Shown one piece after another: positions 8,883-60,906 of a DNA stretch of 64,000 nt. A program made the position numbers and the translations under genes. Each line of letters begins with the position of its first letter. The first letter of the stretch is position 1. Source of the stretch: Nitrospirales bacterium (GTDB lineage Bacteria; Nitrospirota; Nitrospiria; Nitrospirales; UBA8639); contig JAJDBM010000047.1 in assembly GCA_029261355.1 (NCBI GenBank), positions 62,001-126,000 of the forward strand. The letters are read 5' to 3'. Under the pieces are notes generated by a model. That model saw only the letters and a program-made list of their open reading frames with translations, was not told where the DNA came from and did no database searches.

Positions 8883-11342
8883 ATGAGCAACCTGGATATC
8901 AAAAATCAACCTCCTAGCCAGGACCCCCCTCGTCTTCCTCCTTCATTAGGCCCTTCTGAATTTCCCCATGTCCCCAGCCTGGGAAACATTCAGCGACAAC
9001 ATACGACCAGCGAAGAATGGGAGCAGGCATTTAATGCCCTAACTGACCAGATAGTCCTCCTGGATCGCTCAGGCATTATTCTGTGGGCGAATAAGGCTGT
9101 CAATGAATATTTTGAACCGATTCACAGCAACCTCACAGGACTTGACTATCGAATTCCTTATTACGGCACAATTGACTTACCAGACCCACCTCCTTGGGAA
9201 ACAGTCCTCGCTGGCGCTCTATCTGTCGTGATGGAAACCTGGTTGCCGAGTCTTCAAGGCTGGTTCCTAGTCTCGTGTTATCCGTTATATGACAGGGATG
9301 GCAACCAGTGGGGAGTTATTTCTGTCGTCAAAGACATTACAGATCGCAAACGCGTCGAAGAGGCTCTTCGTGACATCGCACAAGGGGCACCTGCAGCTGG
9401 TAGCGTGGCATTCTTCCGCTCCCTGGTCAAAGATCTCTCAAATGCCTTAGATGTTGAATATGCCATACTTGTGGAAATTCCTGATGGCAATAAACATGAG
9501 GCTCAAACGGTAGCAGCCTGGACAAAAAACACCTTTGTTGAAAATTTCGCGTGGAATCTCTCGAGTAATTTTGGAGAACGAATCCTGGCGAGTAAAACTT
9601 GCAATTGGACCAATACTGCTCAAGCAGAATTCCCCCATGATCCGCTCTTTGTAAAATGGGATATTTCCAGTTACATCGGAAGTCCTCTCGTAGGGTCAGC
9701 GGGTCAAGTGATCGGCCTTGTTATTGCAATGGGGAAAAGGTCTCTCCGCAATATACATCTGGCTCAATCAATCATTCGGCTCTTTGCCATCCGTGCAAGT
9801 AGTGAATTAGAACGAAAACGTGCTGAGGAAGCACTGCGTGACAGTGAAGAACGTTATCGAGCCATCGTAGAAAATTCCTATGATTTAATTTTTGAAACAA
9901 CTCCGTCAGGCCACTGTTTATACATGAGTCCCAATTGCCAAGAGATATTAGGCCATCAAGTCAGTACTCTATTAGGAAAAAGTTTTTTTGATCTTGTGCA
10001 TCCAGATGAACGTCAAAACCTTGCAGATGAATTTCAACGAAAAGTTGAGATACTTGAATCTGGGGAAATGGTCTGCCGCCTACAACATGACTCTGAAGAA
10101 TGGCATTGGTATGAAAGTCATACACGGCCATTCAGAACGACCACAGGAAATATCCTTGTTGTCATTGATGCGCGAGATATTACGGAAAGAAAACGTGCGG
10201 AAGAAGAGCGATTACGAGCCACAAAACTCGAGTCAGTCGGTGTCTTAGCAGGAGGAATCGCACATGATTTCAACAATATCCTTACCTCTGTTTTTGCAAA
10301 TGTTGGCCTTTCACGCATGTTGGCAGTCAAACAGAATGGACCATCTGACGCGACAATTGTCGAACGATTAATGGCAGCGGAAAAAGCATGCCTTCGTGCT
10401 CGTGATTTAACCAAGCAGCTGCTGACATTTGCGAAAGGCGGCGCACCGATTAAAAATGTGGCATCAATTGCTACATTCATCACTGATACGGTTGAATTTG
10501 CGCTACGGGGATCAAATGTTCGCTGTGAATTACAACTACCTGACGATTTATGGGCAGTGGAAGTGGATGAAGGTCAGATAAGTCAGGTTATGCAAAACCT
10601 CATTATCAATGCCGATCAGGCAATGCCGGATGGCGGTGTCATCACGGTACGAGCCAGTAATACTGAAATTGGTCAAAGTGATAATCTCCCTGTAAAAGAT
10701 GGGCTCTATGTCGTCGTCACCGTCTCAGATCAAGGTGTCGGCATCCCACAAGAATATGTCACGAAAATCTTTGATCCATACTTTACCACCAAAAAAAAAG
10801 GTAGTGGTCTTGGCCTTGCCACGAGCTATTCCATCATGAAACGCCACGATGGATTCATGACCGTTAATTCCGAACTCGGCAAAGGCACATCTTTTCTCCT
10901 CTACCTCCCAGCTGCCCTCACCATGGTCATCGAAACTCATGAAGAAGAAGAGGAGTTGGTTTCTGGATTTGGTAAAATCTTGATCATGGATGACGAAATT
11001 GATATCCGTGACATACTCGGGAAAATGCTTAAACACTTGGGATACGATGTAGTCTATGCCAACGAGGGGGATGATGCCATCCATCAATATCAAAATGCCT
11101 TAAAGACACAGACTCCCTTCTTACTCACCATCATTGATCTCACCATTCCCGGTGGAATGGGTGGAAAAGAAACCGTTCGCAAGTTACAGGAACTCGACCC
11201 AGAGGTCACAGCGGTCGTTTCAAGTGGGTACTGCAATGACCCTGTCCTAGCCGACCCTGAACATTTTGGGTTTAAGGGAGTCATTGCCAAACCTTATAAC
11301 ATCTCGGACTTGTCAAAAGTCCTAAGACGAGTACTCACCTAA
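8883..11342 (+). CDS. hybrid sensor histidine kinase (PAS-GAF-PAS-HisKA-HATPase-REC)
   Basis: An 819-residue soluble kinase. The first PAS domain is at about 45-155, GAF at about 165-310, and the second PAS at about 325-440 (ending 'DITERKRAEEE'). HisKA is at about 445-520 with the phospho-acceptor His in 'GGIAHDFNNIL', HATPase_c at about 555-685 ('VMQNLIINADQAM', 'GVGIP', 'GSGLGLAT'), and a C-terminal receiver at about 700-818 with Asp in 'TIIDLTIPGG' and Lys in 'VIAKPY'. There is no membrane segment, so it senses a cytoplasmic signal or a soluble ligand through PAS/GAF. It is 80 bases after the HD-GYP regulator and likely phosphorylates it or its own receiver. Confidence 0.92.
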   Translation: MSNLDIKNQPPSQDPPRLPPSLGPSEFPHVPSLGNIQRQHTTSEEWEQAFNALTDQIVLLDRSGIILWANKAVNEYFEPIHSNLTGLDYRIPYYGTIDLPDPPPWETVLAGALSVVMETWLPSLQGWFLVSCYPLYDRDGNQWGVISVVKDITDRKRVEEALRDIAQGAPAAGSVAFFRSLVKDLSNALDVEYAILVEIPDGNKHEAQTVAAWTKNTFVENFAWNLSSNFGERILASKTCNWTNTAQAEFPHDPLFVKWDISSYIGSPLVGSAGQVIGLVIAMGKRSLRNIHLAQSIIRLFAIRASSELERKRAEEALRDSEERYRAIVENSYDLIFETTPSGHCLYMSPNCQEILGHQVSTLLGKSFFDLVHPDERQNLADEFQRKVEILESGEMVCRLQHDSEEWHWYESHTRPFRTTTGNILVVIDARDITERKRAEEERLRATKLESVGVLAGGIAHDFNNILTSVFANVGLSRMLAVKQNGPSDATIVERLMAAEKACLRARDLTKQLLTFAKGGAPIKNVASIATFITDTVEFALRGSNVRCELQLPDDLWAVEVDEGQISQVMQNLIINADQAMPDGGVITVRASNTEIGQSDNLPVKDGLYVVVTVSDQGVGIPQEYVTKIFDPYFTTKKKGSGLGLATSYSIMKRHDGFMTVNSELGKGTSFLLYLPAALTMVIETHEEEEELVSGFGKILIMDDEIDIRDILGKMLKHLGYDVVYANEGDDAIHQYQNALKTQTPFLLTIIDLTIPGGMGGKETVRKLQELDPEVTAVVSSGYCNDPVLADPEHFGFKGVIAKPYNISDLSKVLRRVLT

Positions 11343-54777: not shown

Positions 54778-55872
54778 TCACAATCGCAGACATTCCAATG
54801 CTTCGTGCAAATGCTCCTTGCCTTTTGTAATAATTGCTTCTATCTGAACAGCCCACATATTATCCTCCTCATTTAAAAAAGCAACAATTTTCACAGCATC
54901 TTTTTCAGTTGTCAAAACGACATCCGCCTTCTGCTCTTGTGCTGCTACTCGAATCACATGAATATCCTCGGCGCTGTACGTACAATGATCAGGAAACTCA
55001 AGTTCCTTCACAACTATGCCCCCCATCTCTGAAACGGTCTGACGAAATGCCAATGCATTGCCAATACCACTAAAGATGACGGCTCGCTTACCAGCTATCC
55101 AGGTTCCCGACTCAGCCTGCCATGTCCTAAGATGTTTAACGGACCGAGCATGAAATTCGATATTGATTGCCGGAATCTTCTGGCCAATTGCAGCCTCAAC
55201 CACCTGAAGCACTTGACCGGCCTTAGGTGACTGATCGACACGAGTCTCAATAATAGCGGTCGACCGAGATGCAGCAGATAACGGCTCTCGTAATCGCCCA
55301 GCCGGAAAAAGAGCCCCAAGCCCCTGCCAATCAAGCGCATCAATTAAGAGGAGATTACAATCCCGATGCAGGCGTATATGCTGATAGCCATCATCAAGAA
55401 TAAAACAATCAATCTCCATTCGCTTCAAGACCCACAGACCAAGTTGATATCGATCCCTCCCAACAGCAACGACAACGCCAGGACAATTTTGTGCCATGAG
55501 AAATGGTTCATCACCAGATTCAAGATAAGTCGTTAAAACCTTTTCTCTATCTGAGACAAGAACATAGTCCGCAGTCGACGTTCGACCATAGCCTCGACTC
55601 AATATGGCAATGCGCAGACCCTTCGAATGCAACCACTTTGCCAACCACATGGCAACTGGAGTTTTGCCCGTTCCGCCTACAGTAAGGTTACCCACACTGA
55701 CCACTGGACATGGAAGACGGTTGGAAGTTAGCAAACCTTGCTGATACAGGTAGATTCGACTTCGAACGACCCAACAATAGGGAATAGATAATGCGTAAAG
55801 AAGAGAAGGACAATGGCGATGAAACCAGGAAAGGCAACGCTCCCGATGATTGATACCACTAACAGTCTTCAT
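54778..55872 (-). CDS. lpxK: tetraacyldisaccharide 4'-kinase
   Basis: A 364-residue inner-membrane-associated kinase that phosphorylates the 4' position of the lipid A disaccharide. The Walker A motif is '[19 protein letters not shown]' (about residues 61-79) and the rest ('[14 protein letters not shown]', '[19 protein letters not shown]') agrees with LpxK. I start at the ATG at 55872, six bases after GGAG; a TTG 12 bases earlier and another ATG 3 bases earlier are possible. It sits between waaA and waaF, in the usual order of lipid A assembly. Confidence 0.95.
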
Positions 55873-55902
55873 CATAGTCTCCAAACAGGATGTCTCTTAA
55901 CG

Positions 55903-57246
55903 CTAGGATGAAGAAATTGATGAAGGACAGTTTGATTGATTAGGGGATTTCACTGATTGATCTTCAAGAACGCCACGAATATATTCAATATTTTTCAGCA
56001 CAACACCACGATGAGCGCCAACAACCTCTCTTGCAGCATGCCCAACCTTCTCAGTCCATGAGTCATGCTGATAGGCGTTCGAAATCTTGTCGAATAATTG
56101 GAGCTCATTCTGGACTTCGATCCCACCGCCAGACTGAAGCAATAATTGGGCAACCTCGGAACAGTGATCGGTATAAGGACCAAAGAATACTGGAATCCCC
56201 CATCGAGCTGGCTCTAGCAAATTGTGACCACCAACCGGCGTCAATGTTCCTCCCACAAAGGCAATCCATCCCAATGAATACAGAAGTGAGAGCTCGCCTC
56301 TCGTATCAAGAATGATAACTCTTGGTTGAGACTTGTCGTGTATTATTTCTTCATTGAGCACCACCCGACTCTTTCGAATACAGAGAAGTCCGTGCTTCAA
56401 AACTTTATCCTCAACCTGATTAACTCGCTCAATGTGACGAGGGGCAAGAAGGAGAACAAGAGAGGGAAAGGCTTCATTTAATCGTTTATAACAGCGAAGG
56501 AGCTGATCTTCTTCTTCAGAATGCGTACTGCCTGCGATGATTAATTTCTCACCTGACGTCACACCAAGTAGTGAGGGAGACTGGACGAATCCATGAGAAT
56601 CAGATTCATCATTGACATGATCGAATTTCATATTACCACTAGCATGCACAGCACTAGGCTTTGCACCAAGCTCTATGATTCGTCGAGCATCACGTTCTGA
56701 CTGCATCAATGAAAGCGTGATGGTCGACAACAGCTGCGTCATAAATCCCTGAATATACAGATAGCGCTTAAACGAAGTTGAAGAAAGACGGCCATTGACT
56801 AAAAATATCGGAATGTCCTGACATGAAAAGGCCCTCAAGAGGTTGGGCCACAGCTCTGTTTCAACAACAATGTATGCCGTTGGGCGCAAGCAACGAACAT
56901 AGGCCTGAACGGCCCAGGGAAAGTCTAACGGGCAGTAACAATGTTGTGCCACGCCCGCTAACTGTTGCTCAACCGCTTCTCGTCCGGTTTCGGTGACAGT
57001 TGACACCAAAAAAACCCAATGTGGATAACAATCGCGCAATCCTTTAACAAGAGGAACAACCGAGGTCACTTCTCCCAATGAAACAGCATGAATCCAAAGA
57101 ACAGGAGCAGTAAGATTTCGAAGATTTCCAGGAACCCAGCCAAGTCGCTGAAGAAGACCATGACGACATCGAGGCTTCACAAGAAGAATGGCCAGGATAA
57201 TTGGAGACGTCACTAACAGAAGAACATTGTAGAGAAAATACCCCAC
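55903..57246 (-). CDS. waaA: Kdo transferase
   Basis: A 447-residue GT-B glycosyltransferase of family 30 that transfers Kdo residues from CMP-Kdo to lipid IVA. It has an N-terminal membrane anchor (about 4-22), 'IHAVSLGEVTSVVPLVKGL' with the key Glu near residue 58, 'VETELWPNLLRAF' near 127-139, and a C-terminal donor site 'GWIAFVGGTLTPVGGHNLLEPA'. The start is GTG at 57246. It lies between the split acyltransferase gene and lpxK. Whether it adds one, two or more Kdo cannot be read from sequence. Confidence 0.95.
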   Translation of the reverse strand: MGYFLYNVLLLVTSPIILAILLVKPRCRHGLLQRLGWVPGNLRNLTAPVLWIHAVSLGEVTSVVPLVKGLRDCYPHWVFLVSTVTETGREAVEQQLAGVAQHCYCPLDFPWAVQAYVRCLRPTAYIVVETELWPNLLRAFSCQDIPIFLVNGRLSSTSFKRYLYIQGFMTQLLSTITLSLMQSERDARRIIELGAKPSAVHASGNMKFDHVNDESDSHGFVQSPSLLGVTSGEKLIIAGSTHSEEEDQLLRCYKRLNEAFPSLVLLLAPRHIERVNQVEDKVLKHGLLCIRKSRVVLNEEIIHDKSQPRVIILDTRGELSLLYSLGWIAFVGGTLTPVGGHNLLEPARWGIPVFFGPYTDHCSEVAQLLLQSGGGIEVQNELQLFDKISNAYQHDSWTEKVGHAAREVVGAHRGVVLKNIEYIRGVLEDQSVKSPNQSNCPSSISSS

Positions 57247-57346: not shown

Positions 57347-58011
57347 TTATGTTGATTCTTCGGATACCGTAGAATCAGCCTCAGATGTCATCTTGGACAA
57401 AAACTGCTCGAGCTCTTGACGTTTCACCTCAAGCTCTTCTCGAGAGGCAGTCGCATCAACCCACATGGGATCTCCCCAAATAAACAACGCACGTGCCCCT
57501 GGATACGGAATCATAAACTGATCCCAACTCGAAAAAAGTTTTTTTTTGAGTAAGCACAAGTCACAGGGACAATTGGCAATCCGGTCATTTTTGCTAAATG
57601 AATCACCCCCTCTTGCACTGTTCCTCGCGGACCTTTTGGACCATCAGGAGTAATGGCGATATCGAACCCTTGCCGTCCTTGTCGAATCAATTCTCTCTGA
57701 GCAGACTTGGCGCCTCTGGTGGTTGATCCACGTACTGAGCGAAAACCGAAACGACTGGTAATTCGGTGAATGAGTTCCCCGTCTCTATGACGGCTAATTA
57801 AAATAGAGATGCCTTTTCCTTGATAAACTAAAGGCATCATCAATTGACGACCGTGCCAAAACGCAAAAATAATCGATTGCCCCTTCTTGTACAGGTCCAA
57901 GGTCGGCCCTTCTCCCTTCTTCGTCAGAGTTAACGTCGAACCAAGCCCTCTTATAAGTTTTTCTCCTACAATAGGAAGGATCTTCAATTTCATCCATTGT
58001 CTAAGGAGCAT
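57347..58011 (-). pseudogene. DUF374 lysophospholipid acyltransferase, split by a -1 frameshift
   Basis: A 166-residue frame (58011-57511) ends early, and a second frame (57559-57347) continues the same protein one base back. Joined, they give about 221 residues, the family's normal length. The first part has 'FAFWHGRQLMMPL', 'SRHRDGELI' and 'TPDGPKGPRG', all DUF374 marks, and the second part has 'LFSSWDQFMIPYPGARALFIWGDPMWV', which is the DUF374 C-terminus. The shift falls at a run of nine A on the coding strand (57547-57539), so one A lost, an assembly error, or programmed slippage would all explain it. It sits between msbA and waaA, where an acyltransferase of the LPS block is expected. 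Confidence 0.85.
57538..57548 (-). other. slippery heptamer A_AAA_AAC in a nine-A run
   Basis: On the minus strand, codons TCA AAA AAA AAC of the first frame end in the heptamer A AAA AAC (57544-57538), a known -1 frameshift site. A -1 slip continues with CTT at 57538, exactly the frame that encodes the rest of the acyltransferase. Twelve bases further on, GGGATC (57525-57520) can pair with GATCCC (57472-57467), though the loop is long for a stimulatory stem. Transcript slippage on nine A would give the same product. Confidence 0.6.
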
Positions 58012-58015
58012 AGAT

Positions 58016-59776
58016 TCAGACCCTATTCGGTTCTAACGATTCAATTCCAAAATGTTCAAATTGCGTGTGATAGAGCCTGGTATAGACTCCTCCCTTTTCA
58101 AGCAATTGAGAATGTGAGCCAACTTCAATAAGACTCCCGTGTTCGAGCACCACGATGCGATCTGCATGCTGAACCGTCGATAATCGATGAGCAATAACCA
58201 AGGTTGTACGCTGAGCAGTCATTAAGTTTTTCAGCGCAGCTTGAACAAGTTTTTCCGACTCTGAGTCTAATGCCGAGGTGGCTTCATCAAGGATAAGGAG
58301 TGGGGGATTTCGTAAAATGGCGCGTGCAATGGCTAACCGTTGTCGCTGTCCACCAGATAGCTTCACCCCATCTTCACCAACACGAGTGTTTAATTGATTT
58401 GGTAACCGTTCTATAAATTCCCACGCGAACGCCAATCGTGCCGCTTCAATGACTTCTTCATCACTAGCCGTTGGACGACCGTAGGCAATATTATGCCGAA
58501 TCGTGTCATCAAATAACACCGTTTCTTGGGAAACAATTCCAATTTGCCTTCGCAGAGAGGCTCGACTTGCCTCTCGCACATCACGTCCATCAATGAGTAT
58601 CATGCCTTCCGATGGGCGATAAAACCTTGGCACAAGACTCACCAGCGTAGACTTACCACTCCCACTACTTCCGACAAGAGCTACCACCTCCCCAACAGGA
58701 ATGGTCAAAGAAAATTTCCGCACTGCTGGCTGTTCACTACCAGGATAGAAAAAAGTGATATGTCGAAACTCTAAGGACTTGCGAATAAGGGGAAGTTCGG
58801 CCTTGCCAGCGTCACGATCAAACTCAGTCTCAAGGTCCAAGACATCGAATACGCGCTTGGAGGCAGCCAACGCTCGTTGAATGGCCTGATTCGCTCCAGA
58901 AAGTCGACGAATCGGAGCATAAGCCATAAACATGGCAGCAAAAAATGAGGAAAACCCTCCAGGTGTCATCGCTCCAATACTAATCAGATGCCCGCCATAC
59001 CATATAATCACCACCGTTCCACATAACCCAATAATTTCCATGAGAGGTGAAGACAATGCTGACACTTGAGCCGCCTTTTGACTCGCGGTTCGATAAGCTC
59101 GATTGGTGACATCAAAGCGTTGGGCTTCCGACTCTTCTCCTCCATAGGATTTAACAAGACGGACTCCAGCAAATGTTTCTTTCAACACATTGGCCATATC
59201 TCCCATACTTTCTTGACCACGCGTCGATAATTTTCGTAAACGTTTTCCTATACGGACAATCACTAGGGCCGAAGCTGGAATGATAAACAACATCACCGTA
59301 GCCAGCTTCCAGTTTTGGTAGAACACCACACCAAGAAGAGCGAGAAACGTCAATCCCTGTTGAAACAGATCTTTCATGATACTTGGGATAGCATTGGCCA
59401 TCTCATTCACATCATTGAGCACTCTCGCGACTAATCGCCCTGATGCATTCGTGTCGTGATACTTCACTGGTAATCGAACGATCTGGAGAAAAAGCTGATG
59501 TCGGATATCGGCCACAATCCAATTTCCCACATAACTCATGAGGTAGGCTTGCCCATAGCCAAACGATGCTTTCAAGAGCGCCACGCCTAAAATGATCAAG
59601 GGAAGAATATTGAACCAATACTGGTCTTGTTGAATTAAAATCCCATCCATTAGGGGCTGGACAAGCCAAGCATAGACAGCTTGAAAACCTGCCACGCCCA
59701 CAGAACAGACTAAGGCCAAAATCAGGCGAGCCCTATACGCATGAACATACTGGAGTAACCGCAAAAATGTTGTCAC
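58016..59776 (-). CDS. msbA: lipid A export ABC transporter, MsbA type
   Basis: A 586-residue half-transporter that flips lipid A-core across the inner membrane. About six membrane helices lie within 1-310 (VALLSV-type), and the nucleotide-binding domain has Walker A 'GSSGSGKSTLV', signature 'LSGGQRQRLAIARAIL' and Walker B 'LLILDEATSALDSE'. I choose the GTG at 59776 because it forms GTGA with the lpxB stop and has GAGGTGAAC upstream; a start at 59800 would overlap lpxB by 28 bases. A short linker then leads to the split acyltransferase gene, five bases away. Confidence 0.95.
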   Translation of the reverse strand: MTTFLRLLQYVHAYRARLILALVCSVGVAGFQAVYAWLVQPLMDGILIQQDQYWFNILPLIILGVALLKASFGYGQAYLMSYVGNWIVADIRHQLFLQIVRLPVKYHDTNASGRLVARVLNDVNEMANAIPSIMKDLFQQGLTFLALLGVVFYQNWKLATVMLFIIPASALVIVRIGKRLRKLSTRGQESMGDMANVLKETFAGVRLVKSYGGEESEAQRFDVTNRAYRTASQKAAQVSALSSPLMEIIGLCGTVVIIWYGGHLISIGAMTPGGFSSFFAAMFMAYAPIRRLSGANQAIQRALAASKRVFDVLDLETEFDRDAGKAELPLIRKSLEFRHITFFYPGSEQPAVRKFSLTIPVGEVVALVGSSGSGKSTLVSLVPRFYRPSEGMILIDGRDVREASRASLRRQIGIVSQETVLFDDTIRHNIAYGRPTASDEEVIEAARLAFAWEFIERLPNQLNTRVGEDGVKLSGGQRQRLAIARAILRNPPLLILDEATSALDSESEKLVQAALKNLMTAQRTTLVIAHRLSTVQHADRIVVLEHGSLIEVGSHSQLLEKGGVYTRLYHTQFEHFGIESLEPNRV

Positions 59777-60906
59777 GCGTTCACCTCGGCCAGCACACAT
59801 TCGGCCGCACGACGAGAGGCACCTGAAACACCCAGGGATTCACGAACCTCACGAAACTGCTCTCGCATTTCATCAAGAAGCTGAGGGTTATGAAGCAGCC
59901 GTAGGGCCATAGGAACAAGTTGTTTTACGGTCATATCATATTGAAGAAGTTCAGGTACAATTTGACGCCCAGCAACAATATTGACTAAGCCAATATACGG
60001 TATTTGTATCAAATGACGGGCAATCGAATAGGTCAACCAAGGCACACGATACATAATAATCATGGGCGTACCTATGATAGCTGCCTGTAAGGTCGCCGTT
60101 CCGGAATTGACAAATAACAGATCTGAGGCGGCCATGACTTCATTGGGACTATCCTGAATAATACGAACTTTTAAATTTTGAAATATTTTCACAATATCAT
60201 GAATCGTTTCATATGACACCGAGGAAGAATGGGCAATCATCACCTGAAGTTGGGGGAAAGCCTTCTTCACTTCATGCGCGGCGTGAAGCATGATGGGAAG
60301 ACAACGCTTTACTTCATGCTCTCGACTTCCAGGGAAAAGTCCTAAGGCTTGCGTCGGAGGGGTCAATCCTAATTGTTCCTGAACCAGTATTTTGTCGTAG
60401 GGATGGTGTACGACATCTAAGAGCGGATGTCCCACGAAACTACAGGGAATGCCAGCATTACGATATAAGGGTACTTCAAATGGAAAAATGACAATGAGAT
60501 GATTCACCACACGGCGAATCAGACTGAGGCGACCTTTTCCCCAAGCCCAAATTTGAGGAGCGATGTAATACACAACATGCTGCTTTGCCTGTGCAGCAAC
60601 TTTAGCTAACCGAAGATTCATTCCTGGACTATCGATGAACACAATGACATCAAATCGTTCTTTTCGTATAATTTTCTTCAAACGCTGAAACGTTTGAATC
60701 CCATGGATCAATTGCTTAGGCCCTGGCACACCGATCGCATCAACACGTTCAATGCCCGGAAAGAGACGAACGCCTTCACCTTGCATCAATCGACCACCAA
60801 CTCCGTCGATCTGGAGCTGAGGATCCAAGGTGTAGAGCGCATTGGCAAGATTCGCTCCATGCAAATCCCCTGAGGCTTCACCCGTCACGATAAAAATTCG
60901 AGGCAT
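59773..60906 (-). CDS. lpxB: lipid A disaccharide synthase
   Basis: A 377-residue peripheral membrane glycosyltransferase of family 19 that joins UDP-diacylglucosamine and lipid X. The N-terminus 'MPRIFIVTGEASGDLHGANLANAL' is the family mark, and 'GLFPGSREHEVKRCLPIML' near 190-208 and 'NSGTATLQAAIIGTPMIIMYR' near 268-288 hold the donor site. The stop overlaps the msbA start (GTGA), so the two are coupled. The preceding Gfo/Idh gene ends 53 bases upstream. Confidence 0.97.
   Translation of the reverse strand: MPRIFIVTGEASGDLHGANLANALYTLDPQLQIDGVGGRLMQGEGVRLFPGIERVDAIGVPGPKQLIHGIQTFQRLKKIIRKERFDVIVFIDSPGMNLRLAKVAAQAKQHVVYYIAPQIWAWGKGRLSLIRRVVNHLIVIFPFEVPLYRNAGIPCSFVGHPLLDVVHHPYDKILVQEQLGLTPPTQALGLFPGSREHEVKRCLPIMLHAAHEVKKAFPQLQVMIAHSSSVSYETIHDIVKIFQNLKVRIIQDSPNEVMAASDLLFVNSGTATLQAAIIGTPMIIMYRVPWLTYSIARHLIQIPYIGLVNIVAGRQIVPELLQYDMTVKQLVPMALRLLHNPQLLDEMREQFREVRESLGVSGASRRAAECVLAEVNA

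Follow-up and report, generated by a model that had tools for sequence, protein, structure and literature searches.

Insertion sequences, dnaX and a few special genes provide most known examples of programmed transcriptional slippage in bacteria. In dnaX of Thermus thermophilus, a chromosomal house-keeping gene, RNA polymerase slips on 9-10 As (PMC3711429, PMC1088944), and in dnaX genes of the two-ORF type (Antonov et al. 2013) the longer product requires slippage (PMC3711429), as is proposed here for lpxJ. The magnesium chelatase frameshift genes (Antonov et al. 2013) resemble lpxJ in their net -1 shift at A-runs and in its conservation across genera; 10-63% frameshifting was measured for them in E. 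coli reporters, rising with the length of the run (PMC3711429). With regard to the enzyme, LpxJ (DUF374) of Rickettsia, Helicobacter and Campylobacter, whose role is the secondary acylation of lipid A, belongs to the same Pfam family as the protein described here, and its essential residues H61, D86, D132, W172 and D173 recur with matching spacing (PMC6148475).

The gene lies in the window (the whole stretch of 64,000 nucleotides that was analysed, from a Nitrospirales bacterium) within an operon of the order lpxB-msbA-lpxJ-waaA-lpxK, in which lpxJ has the following neighbours:

59773..60906, minus strand: lpxB, lipid-A-disaccharide synthase (Pfam PF02684)
58016..59800, minus strand: msbA-like lipid A ABC exporter, upstream of lpxJ (Pfam PF00664 and PF00005)
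55903..57246, minus strand: waaA (Kdo transferase), next gene downstream of lpxJ (Pfam PF04413)
54778..55884, minus strand: lpxK, tetraacyldisaccharide 4'-kinase (Pfam PF02606)

The original prediction had described a DUF374 gene in two overlapping frames that join at nine As (57547-57539), with a product of about 221 residues bearing the family motifs. The coordinates and the A9 run proved correct, and the slipped product has 221 aa in total; its W52/H53, D77 and D123 are encoded in frame 0, whereas W163/D164 come from the -1 frame. The parts of the split gene are as follows:

57511..58011, minus strand: frame-0 part of lpxJ (DUF374), from ATG at 58011 to TGA at 57513-57511, 166 aa, with the motifs FWHG (W52, H53), HRDGE (D77) and TPDGP (D123)
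57539..57547, minus strand: the A9 run, candidate site of slippage, read in frame 0 as TCA AAA AAA AAC
57538..57544, minus strand: A_AAA_AAC heptamer in the A9 run, which could serve as a ribosomal -1 site but is not kept as such by the orthologues
57347..57538, minus strand: -1-frame C-terminal part of lpxJ, LFSSWDQFMIPYP... to TAA at 57349-57347
57521..57526, minus strand: codons of W163 and D164 (slipped-product numbering), which match W172/D173 of Rickettsia LpxJ and are read in the -1 frame only, downstream of the run
57511..57513, minus strand: TGA stop of the unslipped product, whose position is not conserved among orthologues

Frame 0 matches PF04028 (DUF374) with an E-value of 6e-28 and 96.7 bits, against a curated cut-off of 26.8. 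Past the A9 run, the -1 frame reads KLFSSWDQFMIPYP... up to the TAA at 57349-57347, and it is in this frame that the family's C-terminal part (SSWDQFMIPYP...) is found. The coincidence of the split in lpxJ with the A9 run is far beyond chance. By motif and spacing, W60/H61, D86, D132 and W172/D173 of Rickettsia LpxJ correspond to W52/H53, D77, D123 and W163/D164 here, and single changes at W60, H61, D86, D132, W172 or D173 abolish the activity of the Rickettsia enzyme (PMC6148475). On the strength of the PF04028 score and these residues, the gene is predicted to encode an LpxJ/DUF374 lipid A late acyltransferase. The unslipped 166-aa product lacks the Trp-Asp pair (W163/D164); an active enzyme would need the shift because two residues that are essential in Rickettsia LpxJ sit only behind the run. 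The original prediction also proposed that slippage might balance a short against a long acyltransferase and so modulate lipid A acylation. Since the short product lacks these residues and its tail is not conserved, it is more likely to be a by-product or a dosage brake than a second enzyme.

When the A-run and the two frames were compared in related genomes, the same -1 offset was found at the same codon in 156 distinct orthologues. The break is common to all five of the five genomes of the genus (protein identity 63-69%), to 42 of the 45 genes read in the window's family and to all 49 genes read in a neighbouring family of the same order (f2); it also occurs in families f3, f5, f6, f8, f9, f15, f16, f19 and f26 of this Nitrospirota-type phylum, in which 11 families have a shifted lpxJ. 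The phylum is so called since some of its loci are identical to named records (e.g. L095 to L154 and L104 to L171, Nitrospirae/Nitrospiria). Shifted orthologues are present in many deltaproteobacterial and some acidobacterial MAGs as well. In addition, 84,980 species genomes were scanned for the signature with a pattern in which the off-by-one spacing was prescribed but eight As sufficed. It matched 53 stretches, which belong to Nitrospirae and to MAGs of deltaproteobacteria and acidobacteria, and every one of them reads as split LpxJ. Of the 191 distinct genes read altogether, 156 have the -1 offset, 34 are in frame and one is at +1; many of the records are MAGs, and one-contig genomes among those read show the shift too.

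The lpxJ gene is in frame and without the run in families f4, f22 and f32. Loci in frame with the run absent include L096 and L129 (both of f4) as well as L033 (genome G020) and L100 (f6) (e.g. SHKHVFGSWD, AKKYVFQSWD); as natural examples of LpxJ made without slippage, they lend themselves to comparison. Two loci carry A10 at the site, in frame in L046 (genome G039) and with the offset the other way in L019 (genome G012), each being either a real change or an assembly error. In view of these six genes, the slipped arrangement is not indispensable. In a Gemmatimonadetes-labelled record (L165), LpxJ groups with Nitrospirae sequences, and the contig is possibly misbinned. A single ancient origin of the shift is not supported by a quick tree with many open forks, which needs at least 10 changes between the shifted and in-frame states, so that several origins or several losses may lie behind the present distribution.

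The run consists of nine As in 114 and of ten As in 42 of the 156 shifted genes. Because the scan picks genes by their signature, frames were also counted in an unselected set, that is, the genes read minus the scan matches. In this set, a run of at least nine As is present in 119/119 shifted genes versus 2/34 in-frame genes (Fisher 6e-31, a nominal value, the sequences being related), and only three other A or T runs of nine or more occur in 559 kb of the same loci. Among shifted genes, the run starts in different phases, with C, G or T as the next base and Ser, Arg, Gln or Leu as the preceding residue, and the rare codons TCA, CAA and TTA appear where they lengthen the run. In f2, for example, Ser is encoded by TCA in 5% of cases and Lys by AAA in 34%, and the site reads TCA AAA AAA AA in 49 of 49 genes. 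Within 120 nt behind the join, the -1 frame contains a stop in none of 154 genes, compared with 93 for frame 0, and substitutions in the -1 frame amount to 0.20/0.16/0.47 by codon position, with an excess at third positions. To judge from these patterns, the -1 frame is under protein-level constraint. The genes thus display what is expected of programmed slippage, namely a run of about nine or more As at the join, with the run and the net offset conserved beyond codon usage. No stem-loop was detected just downstream of the run (mean z +0.24), nor was there a common SD-like stimulator; an SD-like 4-mer occurs in 14 of 156 genes, for which the control stretch, placed on the TPDGP motif, is a poor control.

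The favoured reading, held with a probability of about 0.74, is that active LpxJ is made by programmed slippage at the conserved A9/A10 run, most likely by RNA polymerase. The polymerase would slip on A9 or A10 and produce some transcripts with one A more than the DNA; these mRNAs would be read straight through to give the full 221-aa LpxJ, and the remaining mRNAs would yield the 166-aa product. Such an arrangement would be selected and would limit or set the amount of active LpxJ beside MsbA and WaaA. The residue at the join would be Lys for a slipped transcript and Asn for a ribosomal shift at AAC. RNA polymerase is favoured because it is the run length, not the heptamer, that is kept, because the genes resort to rare codons to make up nine As and because no stimulator is found; in many bacteria, moreover, selection against slippage runs can be seen at a length of nine As (PMC1088944). 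From the conserved pattern, we infer slippage itself, its transcriptional rather than translational level and any dosage role. Expression of the gene through slippage, as the original prediction had it, is very probable in the light of the conserved split, the run of at least nine As and the constrained -1 frame.

The strongest of the other explanations, though an unlikely one, is programmed -1 ribosomal frameshifting at A_AAA_AAC/G/A, in which tRNAs slip back one base on the nine-A mRNA. The early emphasis on A_AAA_AAC is not well supported: the heptamer exists in the window, but it is not what orthologues keep, since the next base and the phase of the run vary. A correct-phase A_AAA_AAN heptamer can nevertheless be read in the window and in most A9/A10 runs of orthologues, and the commonest site in f1 is A_AAA_AAG, a classic bacterial frameshift motif. 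Moreover, A-run genes yielded frameshift products in E. coli reporters, more so with a longer run (PMC3711429); published tests of this type alone do not separate the transcriptional from the ribosomal level. On the other hand, six or seven As in a single phase would be enough for the heptamer, whereas no shifted gene has fewer than nine, and the Ser wobble base, which would be free under ribosomal frameshifting, is always A. In addition, the run is A9 followed by C at 57 sites, although bacterial ribosomes do not readily accept re-pairing from AAC to AAA (PMC4066793). The lack of a conserved stem-loop or SD also counts against a ribosomal shift, although some known ribosomal frameshift sites are without stimulators (PMC4066793).

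A combination of the two levels, with polymerase and ribosome each slipping on the same run, is less probable again. Runs of A9-A10 hold both kinds of site, and dnaX uses either level depending on the species (PMC3711429).

Phase variation, in which replication slippage in the A-run toggles lpxJ, is very improbable. Runs of nine As mutate easily, and phase variation of lipid A or LPS genes occurs in other organisms; however, species do not sample the possible states, the unselected set containing 119 genes at -1, 2 in frame with the run and 1 at +1. A mutable A9 run would give a mixture of frames if it were neutral, and these counts therefore point to selection for the out-of-frame state, the benefit of which would most simply be a limited dose of LpxJ.

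The remaining explanations were rejected along with phase variation, all at negligible probability. A sequencing or assembly error in the homopolymer had been named at the outset as the main rival, homopolymers being error-prone and the window's genome a 74-contig draft, but it is excluded by conservation in more than 100 species: the identical offset recurs in 156 distinct genes whose genomes were sequenced independently and in some cases consist of one contig, and the run adapts to the local codons as A9 or A10 while the net offset stays -1. Recent or ongoing pseudogenisation would account for the broken frame, but not for constraint on the protein before as well as after the join, a -1 frame that is stop-free in 154 genes, a single copy and a retained operon, and the codon-position pattern suggests a constraint behind the join as strong as that in in-frame orthologues. 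Separate translation of two half-proteins through translational coupling is consistent with the ATG that overlaps the frame-0 stop in the window (ATGA, 57514-57511), but of 151 shifted genes just 25 offer an ATG in the -1 frame within 15 nt of the frame-0 stop, this stop changes its position between orthologues, and a start at this ATG would fall behind the essential Trp-Asp pair.

The lpxJ gene is present in a single copy, as the sole DUF374 match in the genome, and a PF03279 search found no LpxL/LpxM gene in the window's genome (G000) or in 38 of 49 family genomes. For this reason, the slipped LpxJ product is probably the only late acyltransferase of this genome. The lipid A of the 38 family genomes without PF03279 may carry few secondary acyl chains.

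With respect to other A-runs, no convincing second split gene was found at the A9 runs of the same genome (30 loci of 87 overlapping matches; L259 and L245 were read). A second A9 run in the window (10791-10799, plus strand) lies in frame inside an intact 819-aa reading frame resembling a sensor histidine kinase (TTKKKGSGLGL), and is a possible site of low-level slippage.

A core outer-membrane gene appears to be slippage-dependent in the majority of Nitrospira-type bacteria and in several lineages besides. If so, a real enzyme may be truncated or dropped by gene-prediction programs in many genomes, the lipid A of these bacteria would depend on polymerase slippage, and a long natural alignment would be at hand from which to work out the run length, phase and context that slippage needs. 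It also raises the question of why so many lineages keep lpxJ out of frame, given that the run is mutable and one base change there would restore the frame. A bolder and rather doubtful proposal is that slippage acts as a regulatory dial, in which the share of slipped transcripts would set the amount of late acyltransferase, and hence lipid A acylation, across whole phyla of environmental bacteria, perhaps in response to temperature, nucleotide pools or transcription rate; were this true, few slippage-dependent cellular genes of bacteria would be as widely conserved as lpxJ.

Compared with the known systems, several differences stand out. Both tau and gamma of dnaX, which is compared here by its description, are working subunits, whereas the unslipped lpxJ product is without essential residues; the gene and the pathway differ as well. 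The runs of magnesium chelatase genes vary from 7 to 11 As, whereas that of lpxJ has strictly 9 or 10, and the enzyme is a different one. For LpxJ of Rickettsia, Helicobacter and Campylobacter, a frameshift is not mentioned in PMC6148475. Lipid A genes with a frame transition, like lpxJ, also form the GeneTack cluster 'Tetraacyldisaccharide kinase/acyltransferase' (PMC3711429), which, as far as its name tells, most likely joins lpxK to the acyltransferase of the next gene and does not concern the inside of lpxJ. At one locus of the present collection (L151), lpxK overlaps at its end with an LpxL-like frame. The searchable papers yielded no account of frameshifting for DUF374/LpxJ/COG2121 or for Nitrospira. 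Slippage-dependent genes are already known as a kind, and it is the lpxJ case, its spread and its role in lipid A that appear to be new.
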